Below are positions 2,929-30,850 of a stretch of DNA of 30,937 bases, one piece after another. How positions within the stretch are numbered: the first letter of the stretch is position 1; every line of letters begins with the position of its first letter. Below the pieces are notes generated by a model. That model searched no databases. It had not been told where the DNA came from and worked only from the letters and a program-made list of their open reading frames with translations. The translations under genes were made by a program, and so were the position numbers. Source of the stretch: a virus; the IMG/VR virus record IMGVR_UViG_3300043466_001016, positions 1 to 30,937 of that record. The stretch is one strand, 5' to 3'.

Positions 2929-3376
2929 TGATGACTTACCACTAACCCCATTAGCACCAAGACCAGCGGGGAGACCAAAGGGTTCCTTTGCAAAGAGAAT
3001 GACCGATGTGGAGAAAAGAACATTCATCAACAACGCAGCAAGAGAAATCTTGGAACACCACTTATCCTATAATGAGTTTGTGAAATATTGTAAGGACACA
3101 GCAAATATGTCTAAATCACAAGCAAACGAATACTGGACTAAAGTGTGGGTACTACTCAAGAAAAAGTTTGAGTTAGAGAAGGACAAACTAATCCTGAAAC
3201 ATACACAGAAGTATTGGGACATATACGAACAATCCTTAATCAATAATGACTATACCAACGCAAGACAATCACTTAATGACCTTGCTAAATTACAGGGGTT
3301 GACACAACCAGAAAAAATAGAAATAACAACTAAAACCATTAAATTAAACTTCGGTAATGAAGAAGAAGGAAATTAA
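2906..3376 (+). CDS. terS: Terminase small subunit, probable
   Basis: The protein would bind the phage DNA at packaging start sites and hand it to the large subunit. An AT-hook-like GRPKGS lies at the N-terminus, followed by a helical DNA-binding region. The C-terminal end (LNDLAKLQGLTQPEKIEITT and IKLNFG) matches a pattern I know from small terminases of Bacteroidota phages. Its 156 residues are typical. It lies upstream of the large terminase but is separated from it by an endonuclease, a methyltransferase and two small genes, which is unusual. Its last 20 nt overlap the endonuclease gene. Confidence 0.6.
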   Translation: MTDIIIPDDDLPLTPLAPRPAGRPKGSFAKRMTDVEKRTFINNAAREILEHHLSYNEFVKYCKDTANMSKSQANEYWTKVWVLLKKKFELEKDKLILKHTQKYWDIYEQSLINNDYTNARQSLNDLAKLQGLTQPEKIEITTKTIKLNFGNEEEGN

Positions 3377-3869
3377 AGAAGACGATAATTGGGGAAGACT
3401 GACTATAATTGAGGAAGTAGAACCATATAGGAAACCTTCAGGACAAACTCAAAGACAATTTAAATGTAGATGTGAATGTGGTAATGAGATTACCACTAAA
3501 CTATTTTATCTTACAAAAGGTCAAACCAAAAGTTGTGGTTGTCTAAATCTTGAACTTGTAAAATCAAGACCAATAACTCATAATCATTCAAGAACGAAGG
3601 AGTATAAGGCTTGGCTTCATATGAAAGAAAGATGTTATAATCCTAATACAACACAATACAAATATTGGGGTGGTAGAGGTATTAAAGTTTGTGATAGATG
3701 GAAACATTCATTCCAAAACTTCTTAGAGGATATGGGGTACAAACCAAGTAATGAATACTCATTAGATAGAATAAATTTTGATGGTGATTATGAACCATCA
3801 AATGTAAGATGGGCAACACCACTACAACAATCAAATAATAGGAGAAATATATGGAACAAGAAACAATAA
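3357..3869 (+). CDS. Zinc-ribbon HNH-like (homing) endonuclease, copy 1
   Basis: The N-terminus opens with WGRLTIIEEVEPYRKPSGQ and a zinc-ribbon pattern (CRCECGNE ... SCGCLN). It is followed by the block KAWLHMKERCYNP, YWGGRGIKVCDRW, F.NFLEDMG and SLDRINFDGDYEPSNVRWAT, ending QQSNNRR. This block is common in phage proteins annotated as HNH or homing endonucleases and ends in an HNH-like Asn/Arg core. It overlaps the preceding gene by 20 nt and the methyltransferase start by 19 nt. A paralogue lies at 6916-7464. Nuclease activity is inferred from the family. Confidence 0.7.
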   Translation: MKKKEIKEDDNWGRLTIIEEVEPYRKPSGQTQRQFKCRCECGNEITTKLFYLTKGQTKSCGCLNLELVKSRPITHNHSRTKEYKAWLHMKERCYNPNTTQYKYWGGRGIKVCDRWKHSFQNFLEDMGYKPSNEYSLDRINFDGDYEPSNVRWATPLQQSNNRRNIWNKKQ

Positions 3870-4906
3870 TGATGTGCGGGGACTCCGCAGAAAAACTAAA
3901 AGAACTACAAGATAACTCAGTTGATATGTTATGTACTGACCCCCCGTATGGATATTCATTTATGAATAAGGGATGGGATAAAGTATTACCTGATACTGAA
4001 ATATGGAGACAATGTTTTAGGGTATTAAAGCCAGGTGCATTCATTACAGTTATGGCAGCACCAAGAACAGATGTATTATGGAGAATAAGTAGAGACCTTG
4101 AAGAAGCAGGGTTTGACTTATCATTCAGTAATATAGAATGGGTTTATCATTCAGGGTTTCCAAAGGCGTCAGATGTTAGCAAGATGATTGATAAGAGGTT
4201 CAATGCTGAGAGAGAGGTTGTTGATAAAGTAGTTCAACCATACACTAATGGAAAACCGAATGTTTTGGGTGGAGGTAAAGGGATGGGAGAACATATTGAA
4301 TATGATGAGAATGGATATAAGATTTATACTATTACAGCACCAGCAACTGACATAGCAAAGAAATACGAAGGTAGTAAGGCAGGGTTCCAACCTAAACCAG
4401 CAAGAGAAATAATCATCGTTGGAATGAAACCTTTTAGTGAAGGTTCTTATATTGATAAGGTATTAAACTTTGAGGCATTACCTGATAATATCAAGATGAC
4501 TTATCCACTAATACAAACACCGAAACCAGCAAAGAAGGAGAAGGACTTTGGATTGAGTGGTGAGGAACAGAAGAAACCACAGAGGGACGAAGGACAAGAG
4601 AAGTTTAATGTTCCACAAAAGAATAGACCAACGACAGCAAAGAATATTCACCCAACGGTTAAACCAATTAAGTTGATGTCTTATCTTATCACCTTATTTA
4701 CAAGACCTGGTGATTGGATTTTAGACCCCTTTGGTGGAAGTGGAACAACAGGACTGGCTTGTAAATTGTTAGACAGAAACCATATCTACATAGATTTCAC
4801 ACAGGAGTATTACGACATAGCGGAGGAGAGGTTCCAAGTATCAAAACAAGACCTTAAAAAGTTATTGAAGGAAAAGATTAGTAATGGGCAGCAAGAGTTA
4901 TTCTAA
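3851..4906 (+). CDS. Beta-class DNA methyltransferase (N6-adenine or N4-cytosine), lacking the internal variable segment
   Basis: Transfers a methyl group from S-adenosylmethionine to a base in DNA, probably protecting phage DNA from host restriction. Catalytic motif IV DPPY is at residues 30-33 and the SAM-binding FGGSGTTG at 294-301, the order of beta-class enzymes. HPTVKPIKLMSYLITL precedes it. WVYHSGFPKASDVSKMI and FQPKPAREIIIVGMKPFSE are typical of a phage family in which an internal segment (GI.WLDDCRIP ... GRFPANLLVSDD ... RY.D.DKW) normally follows SYIDxxL. Here SYIDKVL (about 199-205) runs within about 13 residues to YPLIQTPKPAKKEK, so that segment is absent. It occurs instead as two downstream genes. 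The gene overlaps both neighbours. Confidence 0.85.
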   Translation: MEQETIMMCGDSAEKLKELQDNSVDMLCTDPPYGYSFMNKGWDKVLPDTEIWRQCFRVLKPGAFITVMAAPRTDVLWRISRDLEEAGFDLSFSNIEWVYHSGFPKASDVSKMIDKRFNAEREVVDKVVQPYTNGKPNVLGGGKGMGEHIEYDENGYKIYTITAPATDIAKKYEGSKAGFQPKPAREIIIVGMKPFSEGSYIDKVLNFEALPDNIKMTYPLIQTPKPAKKEKDFGLSGEEQKKPQRDEGQEKFNVPQKNRPTTAKNIHPTVKPIKLMSYLITLFTRPGDWILDPFGGSGTTGLACKLLDRNHIYIDFTQEYYDIAEERFQVSKQDLKKLLKEKISNGQQELF

Positions 4907-5306
4907 AGGTATAAGTTGGATAGATGATTGTAGGATACCTTTTGTAGATGAGAAAGACAAAGAAAAGAATACCGATGGTTTATCAAGATTTAATGACTAT
5001 AGAGGAAAAAGAATTGATTTAGGTTATGGATTTACTGGTGGGGAAAGTTATGAAATAAACACTCAAGGTCGTTTCCCCGCTAATCTACTTGTAAGTGATA
5101 ATATGTTGAATGATGGTATAATTTATAGTAGTGGAAGTGGTGATGGAAAAATGGAAATGATAAACATAAATGACGCACACCATTTTAATTTTATAGAAAA
5201 GAACAGAAAAGTTGTTAAAATGAAAGGGGTTCAGTATAACGACAAGGGTTCTAATTCAAGATACTACGACATAGATAAATGGTTTGATAATTTAATAGAT
5301 GTATAG
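4884..5306 (+). CDS. Free-standing methyltransferase internal segment, copy 1 (putative specificity subunit)
   Basis: The 140-residue product starts SKGISWIDDCRIPF, contains QGRFPANLLVSDNMLNDG and ends SNSRYYDIDKWFDNLI. These motifs, in this order, are those of the internal segment of phage beta-class methyltransferases, which the upstream enzyme lacks. No DPPY or FGGSG motif is present, so it is not catalytic alone. Its ATG lies inside the methyltransferase gene (23-nt overlap), implying coupled translation. The ends are nearly identical to those of copy 2 while the middle differs strongly. It may supply target recognition in trans; that is inference. Alternative: a decaying fragment, but the frame is fully open. 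Confidence 0.6.
   Translation: MGSKSYSKGISWIDDCRIPFVDEKDKEKNTDGLSRFNDYRGKRIDLGYGFTGGESYEINTQGRFPANLLVSDNMLNDGIIYSSGSGDGKMEMININDAHHFNFIEKNRKVVKMKGVQYNDKGSNSRYYDIDKWFDNLIDV
4904..4933 (+). repeat. Direct repeat at 5' ends of the two methyltransferase-segment genes (also 5307-5336)
   Basis: A 30-base stretch encoding the KGISWIDDC region is identical at 4904-4933 and 5307-5336. A second identical pair of 33 bases, encoding the RYYDIDKWFDN region, is at 5259-5291 and 5629-5661. Identical ends around divergent cores would allow homologous recombination to delete, duplicate or swap a cassette. Confidence 0.8.
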
Positions 5307-5676
5307 TAAAGGTATAAGTTGGATAGATGATTGTAGAATACCATTCGAGAGTGGTATTGTATTAGGAAAAAAATTACCAATACAAACAGGTGGAACAATA
5401 TATGGTGGAGGTAAAGGATTTCATAGAACAACAGAATTGGAAGAATATAAAGATGGTGGTAGATTTCCCGCCAATATACTAGTCTGTGATGATATGTTGA
5501 ATGATGGTGTTGTTAGTAAAGGTGGAACAGGAAAAAAATATCCACCACAATATGAAGATAAATTGCACGGATTAGGTGTTAGAAAAACATTACAAGTATC
5601 ATCTTTCAACGACAAAGGAACAAACAGTAGATACTACGACATAGATAAATGGTTTGATAATATAATAAGTGAATAA
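5299..5676 (+). CDS. Free-standing methyltransferase internal segment, copy 2 (putative specificity subunit)
   Basis: A 125-residue paralogue of the gene before it: YSKGISWIDDCRIPFESG at the start, GGRFPANILVCDDMLNDGVV in the middle, and NSRYYDIDKWFDNIISE at the end. The segment between is different (GGTIYGGGKGFHRT, KYPPQYEDKLHGLGVRKTL). It overlaps the preceding gene by 8 nt (ATGTATAG) and the terminase gene by 8 nt (GTGAATAA). Intact frames, coupling and conserved ends with a divergent core fit an exchangeable specificity part better than a relic, but no partner interaction can be seen in sequence. Confidence 0.6.
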   Translation: MYSKGISWIDDCRIPFESGIVLGKKLPIQTGGTIYGGGKGFHRTTELEEYKDGGRFPANILVCDDMLNDGVVSKGGTGKKYPPQYEDKLHGLGVRKTLQVSSFNDKGTNSRYYDIDKWFDNIISE

Positions 5677-6907
5677 AGAAATAACAGTTCAGGGATTTAC
5701 CCCCACCAAAAAACAGAAAGAGATTATTGATGCTTGTTTATCAAAGAACATCAAGTATATCGTAGGATGTTTCGGAAGACAAGCAGGTAAATCATTTACA
5801 GCGATGAACCTATTACTCAAGTGGGCACTCGAAGATAATAACTCTGTGTCTATGTGGGTATCACCAGTTTATTCACAAGCAAAAAAAGTATTCACAGAAC
5901 TAACGAATACAATAGCAGGAACAGGACTCACCAAGGCAATCAACAAGAGCGAACTAACAATCACCTTTATCAACGGGTCAGTAATCTATTTCAGGTCAGG
6001 AGAACGAGAAGATACATTAAGAGGATACACACTCAATTATCTTGTTGTAGATGAAGCAGCATACATCAAAGACGAAGTATGGAACACAGTATTAAGACCA
6101 ACAGTATTGGTGAATGGTAAGAAGGTTTTATTCATCTCAACACCAAAGGGAAGGAACTGGTTTTACAATCTGGCTATGAGAGGTATGAGTGATGAATACC
6201 CCCAATACAAAACATTCTACGCAACATCGTTCGATACACCATTCATCACAGCAGAAGAGTTGGAAGAAGCAAAGTTGTCCTTACCTGAAACAATATACAA
6301 ACAGGAGATACTGGCAGAGTTCATAGATGATGGTGGGGAAGTATTCGGTTCATTAAAGAATTGTTGTGTATTAGGTTCGTATCCAAATAAAGAAGATAAT
6401 GATAGATATTACGCAGGACTTGATATTGGTAGGGCAAATGACTATACTGTTTTAACAATATTAAATAGTAAAGGTGAAGTTGTTAGAATATTTAAGGACA
6501 GACAGAATAGTTGGAATGTAATCGTAAGTGAAATAGTAAAACATTTAAGAGAGTTTAACGCAAGAAGTATTATAGAAATAAATGGAATTGGAGACCCCAT
6601 ATTTGAGCAGATAAAAAAACAATACTCGAACATAGAACCATTCATCACCACAAATGATACGAAACAGAATCTAATTGAAGAATTGATTTTATCTCTAAAT
6701 GAAATGAAATTGAAACTACCATCACCAGAGTTAAATACAGACCTATACAAGGAACTATCTGTTTTCACCTATGAATATTCACCAAAGAGTAGAAGAGTGA
6801 AATATGGAAGTCCTGCGGGGTTTCACGATGATATGGTTATGAGTTTAGCACTCGCTAATGAATGTCTTAAAAAGAAAATCAATTATGGTAAATATGTTGT
6901 TAGATAA
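5669..6907 (+). CDS. terL: Terminase large subunit
   Basis: The DNA-packaging motor: an N-terminal ATPase and a C-terminal RNase H-like nuclease that cuts concatemers. Walker A is GRQAGKS (36-42), Walker B is VVDEA (about 126-130), and STPKGRNWFYNL follows as the coupling motif. Nuclease acidic residues are in AGLDIGRANDYT (Asp near 252) and HDDMVMSLAL (386-388). The length of 412 aa is typical. The start must be GTG 5669: a TAA precedes it in frame at 5666-5668, and the first in-frame ATG lies after Walker A. GTG overlaps the previous stop by 8 nt, so translation is probably coupled. Confidence 0.95.
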   Translation: MNKEITVQGFTPTKKQKEIIDACLSKNIKYIVGCFGRQAGKSFTAMNLLLKWALEDNNSVSMWVSPVYSQAKKVFTELTNTIAGTGLTKAINKSELTITFINGSVIYFRSGEREDTLRGYTLNYLVVDEAAYIKDEVWNTVLRPTVLVNGKKVLFISTPKGRNWFYNLAMRGMSDEYPQYKTFYATSFDTPFITAEELEEAKLSLPETIYKQEILAEFIDDGGEVFGSLKNCCVLGSYPNKEDNDRYYAGLDIGRANDYTVLTILNSKGEVVRIFKDRQNSWNVIVSEIVKHLREFNARSIIEINGIGDPIFEQIKKQYSNIEPFITTNDTKQNLIEELILSLNEMKLKLPSPELNTDLYKELSVFTYEYSPKSRRVKYGSPAGFHDDMVMSLALANECLKKKINYGKYVVR

Positions 6908-10969: not shown

Positions 10970-13900
10970 ATGGGATTACAAATACGAACTTATGTAAATG
11001 GGAACCAAGAGTTTATTGAACTCTATGGTAATGAAGATATTGATATGGAAGTATCCTTTGCGGAGATACAGGACATAACAAAAAAGAATAGTGCCTTCAC
11101 AAAAGAGTTCAAGGTGCCAGGTAGTAAGAACAATAACTACATCTTCAATTACTTCTTTGATATTAACCAAGTATTCACAGATTGGAACCCCAAGAAAAAG
11201 TTTGAAGCAGACCTCATCTATGATGGATACGAACTCTATAACGGGTATGTAAGATTGAATAGTGTATCTATCAACAAGATTGAAAAGACCTATTCTATAA
11301 CCTTCTATTCAGCTGTGGGAGACCTTGTAGCGAACATCGGTGATAAAGCATTATGTAATGTTGATACGAGTTCCTTGAACCACTCATTATACAATACAAA
11401 TATAACAGAAACTTTATTTTTCGACCCATCATTACACAATCCATATTCATATAATCTTGCTAATCCATCTGCTCCAATAACACCAAATCCAGTTAATACA
11501 GGAGAAGTTCAATATGTTTTAGGACAAAGGGGTTATGACTATACTGGTTCAACCTTTAGAGATATCAGGGACATCAACACCAAGAATACCCCACTTCTTG
11601 ATTTTTCAGGAACAACAGGTTTCTTTGACTTTTCAGGTAGTCCTGTTATTTCATCGTATCTTATTCCTTCTGTGAGAACGAGAACATTATATGAATTGAT
11701 TGTGAATCAAGCAGGATATTATTTGGAAAGTTCCTTTTTTGATACTGACTATTTTGGTAGATATTACATACCACTTTCTTTCAATACAGAGCAACCATTT
11801 ATGGCTCAAGCCACGGACTACAAATATAAATGGGTTAATACTTCAGGTTATACTTCACAACTACCCATTAATTTTTTTGATATAGGAGGTTCGAGTGTTT
11901 TTGCGTTGGATATGTTAAAACCATTCAATATTGTTGAGGAAAACTTGGGATTCAATCCATTAGATTATGCTGAATATTCTGGTATTGCTCCACAAATATC
12001 AGCATATACACAATACTTTTTCGCTTTACCATATTCTAATGGTAATCCTATCACTTACGAAATGAGTATAACAAATGTTTATACTGGTTCTACTTATTGT
12101 TCTAATCCTCCGAGTTGTGGTGATTTTATCGGTGATATGTGGTTAGTCAGATATACGGCTAATTCTGGTTCAACTATTGTAGGTCAAACCATATCATCAG
12201 TTCCATTTTTCGGTTTCGATTCAGGCCCAAATGCAACAAATACCTATTATTTTACGGGTTCAACTACACCATTAGGTAGTTTCAACGGAACAGATTTATA
12301 CTTCTTTGCATATACAATCAATCAACCTGGTTGGATTATAACGGGTGCTTCATTCAATACTTTATCTTATCCTAATGTTCTACCGTATGAAATTGAACTT
12401 CATAAGGAGATGTCCTGCGACCAAAAACAAATTGATTTCATACAAAATATAAATAAGACATTCAATCTTGTTGTTGTAGAACATCCTACAAAAACAAAGA
12501 CACTAATAGTTGAACCTATTAACGATTATATTGGTAAAGGTCAATTATTAGATTGGACTGATAAAGTAGATTATGATGCTACACAAAATCTTTATCCGAC
12601 CACGAATCTAATCAACGGTACAATCTTTGCTTCTAATAAAGCAGACAAGGATTATATTAACATAGAATACACAAAGAGAAGTAATAAAACCTTCGGTCAA
12701 AACCAATTTGATTTAGATATTGATTACAAAAATCAAACAACAAATCTAACACAAACATTAGGACAGAATACCGATTATTATTTGAATGCTTCAGGTGATA
12801 CGAATATTGCTTTACCTTGTTATTTCATCACCAAAGAGAATAACAATAATGGTATTTCTACATTCGAGTATAGACCATTTCGTTCTATACCAAGACAGAC
12901 ATTCAAGTCAGTATCTATACCAACAGGTAATACATCATCAAATCCATTTTTTTACAGATACGCTGGAACGAATAGTCCATTTACAAATATTGGTTTAACA
13001 AGTATGGGAACATTCCCAAATTACAATCGTAATACAACATATCCATATGCTATTGATGGTTTTTCACATTATACAATTTATGATAGTAGTAATACATTCA
13101 CACCTGATGAATTAGTATATCCAACTATAGAAAACCAATACGATAGATATTACAAAGATTATATTGATGATTTGACTGATGATGAAAATAAGATTTATCA
13201 GGTACAAATGTATCTAACGCCTTGGGAAGTTGCGGGACTGTACTTTAATGAAACGATAATGATAAAGAATACAAAGTTCAGGATAAATAAAATATCAGGA
13301 CTTTCACTTCTTACACCTGGTATGTGTAGTGTTGAGTTAGTAAAACTAACAAGAGATTATACATCAACACCAGTTTTATTTTACGATTTAATAAACTGTA
13401 GCGACCCTTGTGATGTAATACATACACACACGGATATTGTATATCCTGTATGGGCCTTTGAAGGTCAATATGTGGATGTTTATACGGGCCCGTTAGATTA
13501 TGAACCTTTTGAAAATATAAAAAGATATAAAGTTGTTAGAACAGAATACAACGAAGCATATACCTACACCATTCCGTATTTTGATATTTATAGAACACAG
13601 ACCTTCAATTATTACATCTTTTGGGATTATGCTACTTATAGTAGTTGTTCCGCAACAACCCCAAGTTTTGATTTGAGAATAACAGATGAAACAACAACAC
13701 CATATACTGGTGATTGTGTTTCTATGACGATTACCAATACAGGAATTACACAGAGCACATTTAATTTTAAGTATTGTGATAAAATTGATGGTACTTGGAC
13801 GCTTGACCCATTAAGTTCAATAACGATATGTGGTCTGTATAGTTCATTTCAAGATACAGGATTTACCTATTGTGTAAGTTCATTCACACCTTGTGTTAGT

Positions 13901-29384: not shown

Positions 29385-29744
29385 AATATAGAACCCGAAA
29401 TAACGAAATTATGCAGAGCTTGTAATAAAGAAAAGAAGGTGAGTCAATTTCACAAACAGAATGCTGCTGATGGTTATACTGCTCGTTGCAAAATGTGCCA
29501 GAATAGTGGTATTTTAATTCCAAAACATAAGATAATCAAAAACGAAATAATACCTTTGACTTTAACAGGATTGAAGGAAGGTGATTATGTTGATATGTAT
29601 AAGTTTCTAAATGCTGTGGGTTATTCCCTGAATGATGAAAATGATATACACGAACAATTCTGTATCAAGTATGGTCTAAAACCATCTAATCCCAAACAAA
29701 CATTTAATTATCATTTTTCTCCAAAAGATTTGGGGTTGATTTGA
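29382..29744 (+). CDS. Zinc-ribbon protein, 120 aa
   Basis: Four cysteines at residues 11, 14, 36 and 39 (CRACNKEKKVSQFHKQN ... ARCKMC) form a zinc-ribbon of the kind found in phage HNH and recombination-endonuclease VII relatives. No HNH core follows here. The C-terminal half (LKEGDYVDMYKFLNAVGYSL, FCIKYGLKPSNPKQTFNYHF) is unfamiliar. It may bind DNA or be a detached endonuclease domain. It is the first gene after the structural cluster. Confidence 0.6.
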   Translation: MNIEPEITKLCRACNKEKKVSQFHKQNAADGYTARCKMCQNSGILIPKHKIIKNEIIPLTLTGLKEGDYVDMYKFLNAVGYSLNDENDIHEQFCIKYGLKPSNPKQTFNYHFSPKDLGLI

Positions 29745-29777
29745 CTTTTGATAATTTATCAACTATTTATTGTATAG
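29741..29777 (+). promoter_or_regulatory. Promoter-like site before the small ORF and structured RNA
   Basis: TTGACTTTTG at 29741-29750 and TATTTATTGTATAG at 29764-29777 repeat the two parts of the site at 317-355. A start site near 29778 would leave only a few bases before the ATG at 29782. Inference from motif sharing. Confidence 0.45.
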
Positions 29778-29781
29778 GATA

Positions 29782-29886
29782 ATGGGCGGAAACATAACAC
29801 TTGCGTTATTCTATTACGACTTACAAGGGGATAATTTACATTACAAGTCAGCACCAGCACAAAGGAAGAAGGTGTATAGTAAATAG
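29782..29886 (+). CDS. Possible 34-residue peptide
   Basis: ATG 29782 to TAG 29884-29886 encodes a short basic-ended peptide (MGGNITLALFYYDLQGDNLH, ending AQRKKVYSK). It starts a few bases after the promoter-like site and ends exactly where the structured RNA begins. It could be a real small protein or a leader peptide whose translation affects the RNA fold. No family is recognised. Confidence 0.35.
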   Translation: MGGNITLALFYYDLQGDNLHYKSAPAQRKKVYSK

Positions 29887-30064
29887 GTTGAAGGGTCAAT
29901 CTAAAGTTGCTTCCAAGTTATAGTTTCCCTTGATACTATAATACTCCCAGTCAAGTAAGTAATGACTACGAGTGTGTTATTCTATAGTGAAAACTATGGG
30001 ATAAGCACTCACATATCAACCCGTAAGTAAGAAACCTTCGGTTAAAGGAATTAGAATAGCAACT
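29886..30064 (+). ncRNA. Structured RNA, multi-hairpin with possible pseudoknot
   Basis: Helices seen by eye: TTATAGT (29918-29924) with ACTATAA (29935-29941); AGTCA (29949-29953) with TGACT (29963-29967); and a long hairpin with GAGTG (29970-29974)/CACTC (30006-30010) plus 12 continuous pairs 29977-29988/29993-30004 closed by a GAAA tetraloop. AACC/GGTT flank a TTC loop at 30033-30043. They can be enclosed by GGTTGA (29886-29891)/TCAACC (30016-30021) or by AGTTGCT (29905-29911)/AGCAACT (30058-30064). These two cross, so they are alternatives or a pseudoknot. AAGGG (29891-29895) can also pair with CCCTT in the first loop. I see no tRNA, tmRNA, RNase P or group I signature. Confidence 0.55.
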
Positions 30065-30067
30065 GGT

Positions 30068-30148
30068 ATGAAAGTAGATATATTAGCATTACAAATATTA
30101 TTAGGATATATTATTGCTCTTTTCATTATTAGAAAAAGAAGGAGTTGA
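30068..30148 (+). CDS. Single-span membrane peptide, 26 aa
   Basis: ATG 30068 to TGA 30146-30148 encodes MKVDILALQILLGYIIALFI followed by IRKRRS: one hydrophobic span then a strongly basic end. Despite its size the composition is far from random, and it lies alone between the structured RNA and the next gene. Very small membrane peptides can be holin-like, toxic or regulatory; any of these is inference. No Shine-Dalgarno is present. Confidence 0.4.
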   Translation: MKVDILALQILLGYIIALFIIRKRRS

Positions 30149-30409: not shown

Positions 30410-30485
30410 AGAGGGGAGGTTTTTTAACTATTCTAATAGTGCTTCCATTATCCATTTTTATTCTATTTTACCTCCCCTCTTTTTT
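30410..30485 (+). terminator. Long-loop hairpin with T-tract
   Basis: AGAGGGGAGGT (30410-30420) pairs perfectly with ACCTCCCCTCT (30470-30480), an 11-bp GC-rich stem, with TTTTTT at 30480-30485. That is the layout of an intrinsic terminator. Unusual points are the 49-nt AT-rich loop and the next ATG only 3 nt after the T-tract. The loop may hold the next gene's promoter, or the hairpin may regulate that gene by attenuation. Confidence 0.6.
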
Positions 30486-30487
30486 AT

Positions 30488-30850
30488 ATGGAACAACAAG
30501 CCTTAATACCATTATTGGAAAGTGTTGTTAAAGACAATACCACATTCAAGTTTCCTATTGAATCAATCAGTAAGGAACTAACATCTATGTTCCTTGAACC
30601 ATTAGAGTTCGACTACTTCACAATACAAAGTTATAAAAAACTCAAGAGAGAGTTTGGTGAAACAGTAGCACATATATTCCTCACAACATTAGATATGAAA
30701 CTACAACTCAAGGAGAGGGATATCTATACCTTATCAGTCGAGCAGTACCAGTCAGAAATGGAAAGTTTCTTAATCACCCTTGAACGATTATACATTACCA
30801 AAGTAGATAAGAGGTCAAGTGATGGTGAGATGATGTCTGCTATGGCTTAA
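30488..30850 (+). CDS. Hypothetical protein, 120 aa
   Basis: The complete copy of the gene whose 3' part opens the window. It begins MEQQALIPLLESVVKDNTTF and continues through FLEPLEFDYFTIQSYKKLKR to a basic end (LYITKVDKRSSDGEMMSAMA). It is all-helical by appearance, with no Cys motif or membrane span, and no family is recognised. Between the variants at the two ends of the window, eight of nine changes are synonymous or third-position, so the protein is under purifying selection and very likely expressed. In the circular genome it precedes the early operon at 371. Confidence 0.75.
   Translation: MEQQALIPLLESVVKDNTTFKFPIESISKELTSMFLEPLEFDYFTIQSYKKLKREFGETVAHIFLTTLDMKLQLKERDIYTLSVEQYQSEMESFLITLERLYITKVDKRSSDGEMMSAMA

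Follow-up and report, generated by a model that had tools for sequence, protein, structure and literature searches.

The window analyzed here, which is the whole 30,937-nt stretch of the virus record IMGVR_UViG_3300043466_001016, carries near its end a predicted structured RNA of ~270 nt, named family A, that extends on the plus strand from 29774 to ~30045. Directly 5′ of it lies the promoter-like sequence TTTGACTTTT..TATATTTATT, which resembles what we take to be Bacteroidota-type −33/−7 boxes; going by promoter type only, the host of the window's phage group probably belongs to the Bacteroidota. The strict form of the pattern, TTTGA(C/T)TTTT..TATTTAT, occurs on the plus strand of the window only at 316, 29740, and 30878. 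The features of the locus are as follows:

29740..29771, plus strand: promoter-like element TTTGACTTTT ... TATTTATT, conserved upstream of nearly all family members
29774..30045, plus strand: whole structured RNA (family A), delimited by homologues, fold (z = −3.1), and covariation
29774-29782 / 29806-29814, plus strand: P1 hairpin, 8 of 9 pairs changed on both sides, 77% of cells paired
29783..29805, plus strand: P1 loop motif UGGGCGGA-n-AAC-n-GCG, common to RF02932
29818-29822 / 29845-29849, plus strand: P2, 100% paired, 2 of 5 pairs compensatory
29822-29833, plus strand: P2 loop motif UAC-nnn-GGGAUA, common to RF02932
29834-29839 / 29879-29884, plus strand: P3 pseudoknot, crossing P2, 5 of 6 pairs compensatory, 100% paired
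29851-29855 / 29871-29875, plus strand: P4 hairpin, 100% paired, 1 compensatory pair
29864-29868 (GGAAG) / 29910-29914 (CUUCC), plus strand: PK4, P4 loop with a 3′ strand, compensated in homologues
29886-29890 / 29897-29901, plus strand: P5 hairpin, 3 of 5 pairs compensatory, 100% paired
29891-29895 (AAGGG) / 29927-29931 (CCCUU), plus strand: P5 loop–P6 loop contact, 3 of 5 pairs compensatory, 96% paired
29917-29924 / 29935-29942, plus strand: P6 hairpin, 3 of 8 pairs compensatory, 100% paired
29949-29953 / 29963-29967, plus strand: P7 hairpin, 94.5% paired, 1 compensatory pair
29970..30010, plus strand: P8, long hairpin with GAAA tetraloop at 29989-29992, 18 pairs, 2 compensatory, 90% of cells paired
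30011..30045, plus strand: 3′ tail (CAACCCGUAAGUAA), conserved in sequence
30068..30148, plus strand: 26-codon ORF for a small membrane-type protein (MKVDILALQILLGYIIALFIIRKRRS), read from the sequence; a neighbor outside the RNA

Two further regions of the window deserve mention. At 30411-30485, an inverted repeat with the arms GAGGGGAGG/CCTCCCCTC encloses a 51-nt loop, and its T-run stops just before the start codon of the gene at 30488; the repeat is kept in relatives and may act as terminator or attenuator, or else represent a different RNA. At 3851-5676, two overlapping ORFs that begin almost identically (SKGISWIDDCRIPF) lie behind an N6/N4 DNA methylase gene and resemble broken or duplicated methylase parts.

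The extent of the RNA was defined by comparison with related viral contigs, where conservation begins at ~29774 and stops near 30045, and the sequence diverges directly past this 3′ end. Homologues in other contigs are ~78–96% identical, to which the sequence in contig L111 has to be added. A first-pass annotation, made from the letters of the window, had placed a strongly foldable RNA at 29886-30064, a span that lacks the 5′ third and does not match the conserved unit. The foldability itself was correctly recognized, since this stretch reaches −48.6 kcal/mol as compared to −32.3 ± 3.9 kcal/mol for shuffled sequences (z = −4.18; 0 of 200 as good), with a weaker signal on the minus strand (z = −2.5). 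The full RNA at 29774-30045 likewise folds better than each of 200 shuffles (z = −3.12), so that the shuffled-control test proposed in the annotation turned out positive for both spans. The local hairpins it described are present as well, the long one with the GAAA loop being P8 (29970-30010). It had also seen no tRNA, tmRNA, or intron signature. Consistently, ARAGORN detected neither tRNA nor tmRNA in the window, and Rfam 15 yielded nothing at gathering score there, including group I and II introns, GOLLD, ROOL, and HEARO.

Covariation, the second check that had been suggested, was assessed in alignment A9, which comprises 11 sequences (the window and 10 homologues, L111 included) and contains 71 pairs in 11 helices with 93.9% standard pairs. 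Both sides had changed at 30 of these 71 pairs, compared to 10.9 ± 2.3 in shuffled alignments (0 of 500), in a count for which the same sequences served to draw the structure and the shuffles ignore relatedness. The covariation score amounted to 0.263 versus 0.127 for shuffled alignments and 0.05–0.08 when the partners were slid, and after omission of L111, 20 of 68 pairs were still compensatory (8.3 ± 1.9 expected). When all possible helices were scanned, P3 came out on top and PK4 was recovered as well. Only P1 is paired in as few as 77% of cells, because the automatic alignment mis-registers some rows, and the weak ACC/GGU hairpin in the tail (30034-30042) shows no compensatory changes. A chance fold was rejected on the basis of both the shuffle energies and the covariation counts. 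A helix favored by the energy model, ACUUAC 29819-24/GUAAGU 30023-28, was discarded too, as it is broken in 4 of 11 sequences without compensation. The same applies to a protein-coding reading of the 5′ part: a 34-codon ORF (MGGNITLALFYY...) is open in the window and in L012, but in the remaining homologues stop codons or frame shifts interrupt it.

The element is thus, as far as comparative sequence analysis tells, a structured RNA of ~270 nt with the predicted helices P1–P8 and three crossing interactions, namely P3, PK4, and the P5–P6 loop–loop contact. PK4 is preserved as GAAAG/CUUUC in L048 and GGAAA/UUUCC in L111, the loop–loop contact reads AAUGC/GCAUU in L048, and P8 is shorter in L038. 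The first-pass annotation had also predicted a pseudoknot. Crossing helices do exist, but they are not the ones it named: the proposed closing helices GGUUGA 29886-91/UCAACC 30016-21 and AGUUGC 29905-10/GCAACU 30059-64 have no compensatory pair, and each is disrupted in related sequences. In P5, the GGUUG strand has a local partner instead, and compensations are found there. A cis-regulatory switch between two exclusive folds, which the annotation had derived from these helices, is left unsupported by their lack of covariation.

The window contains no match to the Rfam family RF02932 (Betaproteobacteria-1), and all family A members score below its gathering threshold of 49.4 bits. At relaxed thresholds, however, L048, the most divergent homologue before L111 came to light, is matched by the RF02932 model from end to end (positions 4600-4699; 26.3 bits, E = 0.003). 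In the reciprocal search, model R3, which represents the 5′ domain of family A and includes no RF02932 sequence, was run over the 18.7 kb of six loci with RF02932 hits taken from Pseudomonadota genomes, and three of its four best matches fell on those hits (L096, E = 0.005; L094; L093). The pattern of shared elements, UGGnCGG..RAC..GCG..UACnnnGGGAUA, retrieves 61 viral contigs, ~12 with family A and ~48 others. Among ten contigs of the latter kind checked with RF02932, nine exceed the gathering score. The tenth, L111, remains under it (33.5 bits, E = 1.6e-6) and aligns to family A along its entire length; its RNA has a zinc-ribbon gene before it and early genes and the terminase behind it, the same kind of place as in family A. 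Judged by these alignments, L111 is a bridge between both branches.

The two branches also have the same predicted core. In 27 distinct sequences from both, the strands that follow GGGAUA and P4 are complementary to each other, with a mean helix score of 5.28 as compared to a maximum of 4.20 in 500 permutations, and the P4 loop is complementary to a strand further on (0 of 500 permutations in either case). Therefore, P3 and PK4 appear to be common to the class, and both were found here in true RF02932 members. Family A has the P1 loop UGGnCGG..AC..GCG, the P2 loop ACnnnGGGAUA, P3, and the P4-loop pseudoknot, and we regard it as very probably a distant relative of the RF02932 class, while by curated score it is not a member.

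Several other searches for relatives were negative. The family A and B models (for family B see below) had no match in 395 Bacteroidota genomes, in a search run without positive control, and nothing of use came from comparing family A, family B, and two RF02932 sequences with named phages and plasmids. A weak RF02932 hit in a Bacteroidota genome (L099) lies inside an apparent cysteine-synthase gene and was dismissed as chance. Hits that the 5′ pattern gave in bacterial genomes (L050-L059) were set aside as coding coincidence, with L055, the one that was read, encoding the hydrolase-like GHSMGGYITL; the pattern hits L131 and L082 look like coding DNA. As to the RF02932 members themselves, genome G737 holds three hits (L093, L097, L098), two of them above gathering score and one near arsenic-related and polymerase-like genes, which we read as multicopy spread. 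In L102, the RNA at 1834-1951 lies ~1.3 kb from a large AAA_13 ATPase gene (3220-5868), a kind of ATPase found in some defence proteins.

In all contexts examined, the RNA and the genes following it are on the same strand. In betaproteobacterial phages and prophages (L107, L109, L145, L152) it comes directly after genes for helicase and primase. In Acidovorax phage AP1, the RNA (11867-12045 of the record) occupies the unannotated gap between the primase end at 11821 and the next gene start at 12115. Such positions would suit a replication-linked RNA, which could act as a primer or be transcribed as a structured RNA at the phage origin. In the window's group, however, the RNA is not adjoined by recognized replication genes but sits ahead of genes leading to the terminase, and we consider a replication role unlikely. 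In prophage-like regions, the RNA is found beside repressor or integrase genes; in L118, it is near a repressor-like gene.

Among relatives of the window's phage, which are metagenomic, the slot that follows the promoter and precedes the small ORF is occupied by family A, by an RNA of family B (L080, L085, and others), by a noncoding stretch designated C (L070, L033), by short RNAs, by an ORF (L040, L039), or by nothing (L064), and neither family A nor B is present elsewhere in the 32-kb record of L040. Because of this variation, the RNA looks dispensable in this phage group and would represent optional cargo. Family B (L080:9375-9594, L085:10634-10891, and 14 more in alignment A5) comprises RNAs of 214–271 nt; compensatory changes affect 13 of their 42 predicted pairs, and L061 gave no Rfam match. 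In a wider phage group, these RNAs lie in the same slot or ahead of early or terminase genes, and they are followed by separate promoter-like boxes. Homology of families A and B, suggested by their common CUUACARGKGGAUAA motif, was rejected, since neither model finds the other and the local alignment is not significant. The C stretches (L070 ~2300-2650, L033 ~550-920) resemble each other and lack a credible Rfam match. Directly behind the promoter, L036, L044, L066, L043, L061, L062, and L033 have short, pseudoknot-like RNAs of ~95 nt, in which complementary arms cross, such as CUCUUCAC/GUGAAGAG with CCCUUGU/ACAGGGG, and a U-run is present. This diversity suggests that the slot is a place where the window's relatives exchange RNA genes.

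The variable slot also bears on two more specific roles. One is that of a packaging RNA like the phi29 pRNA, which the first-pass annotation had offered as one option and for which the loop–loop contact and the position between late genes and terminase genes might be cited. We judge it highly improbable: the element is missing or replaced in related phages, in other phages it adjoins the primase and not the terminase, and the TerL is of ordinary type (Terminase_6N, weak Terminase_6C). The other is regulation of the 26-codon membrane ORF, as a riboswitch or translation leader; the start codon of this ORF follows the RNA in the window by ~20 nt. Short ORFs similar to this one are found at the same place in most relatives, several of which carry other RNAs. 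Since the ORF stays where other RNAs replace the RNA (L061, L068, L070, L033), and the RNA occurs without the ORF in L111 and Acidovorax phage AP1, we find this role improbable.

The promoter-like element upstream, the covariation, and the kinship to a phage-borne class speak for a phage noncoding RNA transcribed from ~29741, as the first-pass annotation had supposed. For its function, the most informative feature is what has been conserved across two phage groups: sequence is maintained only in the loop motifs UGGnCGG..AAC..GCG (P1) and ACnnnGGGAUA (P2), whereas in the helices only pairing is. This points to binding of a conserved component, and as that component has to be unchanging from phage to phage, it might be sought in the host. 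The best explanation as a whole, to which we give slightly better than even chances, is therefore an RNA made early by the phage and working in trans, with a target that both host groups have in conserved form; that it acts in trans on a host component is, taken by itself, a tentative proposal falling somewhat short of even chances. The RNA would be transcribed from the promoter directly upstream, and the compact structure would serve as a scaffold presenting the two invariant loops, which in turn could bind a component conserved across both host groups. The function would be an accessory one in early infection, because related phages have other RNAs, an ORF, or nothing in the slot. Action in trans is preferred because of the own promoter in family A, the separate promoter-like boxes after family B, and the varied gene settings. 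On the other hand, no terminator was detected right after the RNA, so that a longer mRNA might begin with it, which would favor action in cis; the RNA is located inside an operon in the helicase-primase phages, and no partner protein was found.

The main rival, to our mind doubtful, would accordingly be a cis-acting leader of the early operon, for instance an RNA-only antiterminator analogous to HK022 put or Bacillus EAR, where the nascent RNA would bind RNA polymerase and cause it to read through later terminators. Family A RNA would form the very 5′ end of its transcript on the strand of the following genes, the RNA is part of early operons in the helicase-primase phages, no terminator was found directly behind it, and expression of the gene at 30488 would need readthrough of the U-run hairpin at 30411-30485. 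This hairpin is, however, also present in relatives without the RNA (L064, L043), the downstream genes appear to own promoter-like boxes, and the RNA is missing or swapped for unrelated RNAs in relatives. RNAs derived from RAGATH-18, another motif of the same discovery series, are reported to have turned out to be guide or scaffold RNAs (PMC11061315). The architecture with several pseudoknots and the divergence right past the conserved 3′ end would also fit an RNA that guides or scaffolds an RNA-guided nuclease or regulator. Yet no TnpB, IscB, or Cas-like protein is encoded among the scanned window proteins or the scanned neighbors of RF02932 loci, and such a role seems improbable. Overall, the guide, replication, small-ORF leader, and packaging roles are less likely than trans action and cis antitermination. 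RF02932 and family A could also form one old phage RNA class that has spread through phages from two or more phyla. Its crossing interactions would expose two loops of invariant sequence, and early in infection these would engage conserved host machinery such as RNA polymerase or the ribosome. Such an RNA-only takeover factor is a speculative idea that we would not expect to hold in full.

RF02932 is an orphan Rfam entry typed as sRNA gene and little studied. The present analysis extends it to a second phage group, with a longer structure and two class-wide pseudoknots, and places the class in phage early regions; with Acidovorax phage AP1 as a named carrier, the function of the RNA becomes directly testable. 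Our literature search retrieved no paper on the Betaproteobacteria-1 RNA, and the original RF02932 description, which was outside its scope, may already note parts of what is reported here. As far as the literature searched shows, the kind of RNA was already known, and new are the branch in the window's group, the full-length architecture, with its two class-wide pseudoknots and the additional contact seen in family A, as well as the phage setting.

Among known systems, HK022 put RNA and Bacillus EAR are RNA-only elements near the operon start. Family A resembles them in this position and possibly in its way of working, but is larger and has no family match. The phi29 pRNA is a phage RNA with a loop–loop contact; in contrast to it, family A has no Rfam match, is optional in relatives, and coexists with an ordinary terminase. 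GOLLD and ROOL are, similarly, large ornate phage RNAs with pseudoknots and loop–loop contacts whose function is not known, ROOL being non-essential in one strain (PMC12286853); family A is less than half as long, was not matched to them in the Rfam scan, and has no tRNA nearby. The closest likeness is to RF02932, which is borne by phages and prophages as well and shares the P1 and P2 loop motifs, P4, and the two predicted pseudoknots P3 and PK4 at matching places. The Rfam model of this family covers 120 positions only and displays a structure line without pseudoknot. The RNA of the window differs in scoring under the gathering threshold, in belonging to a different phage group, probably of Bacteroidota, and in possessing its own 3′ domain, composed of the P5–P6 loop–loop contact, P7, and P8.
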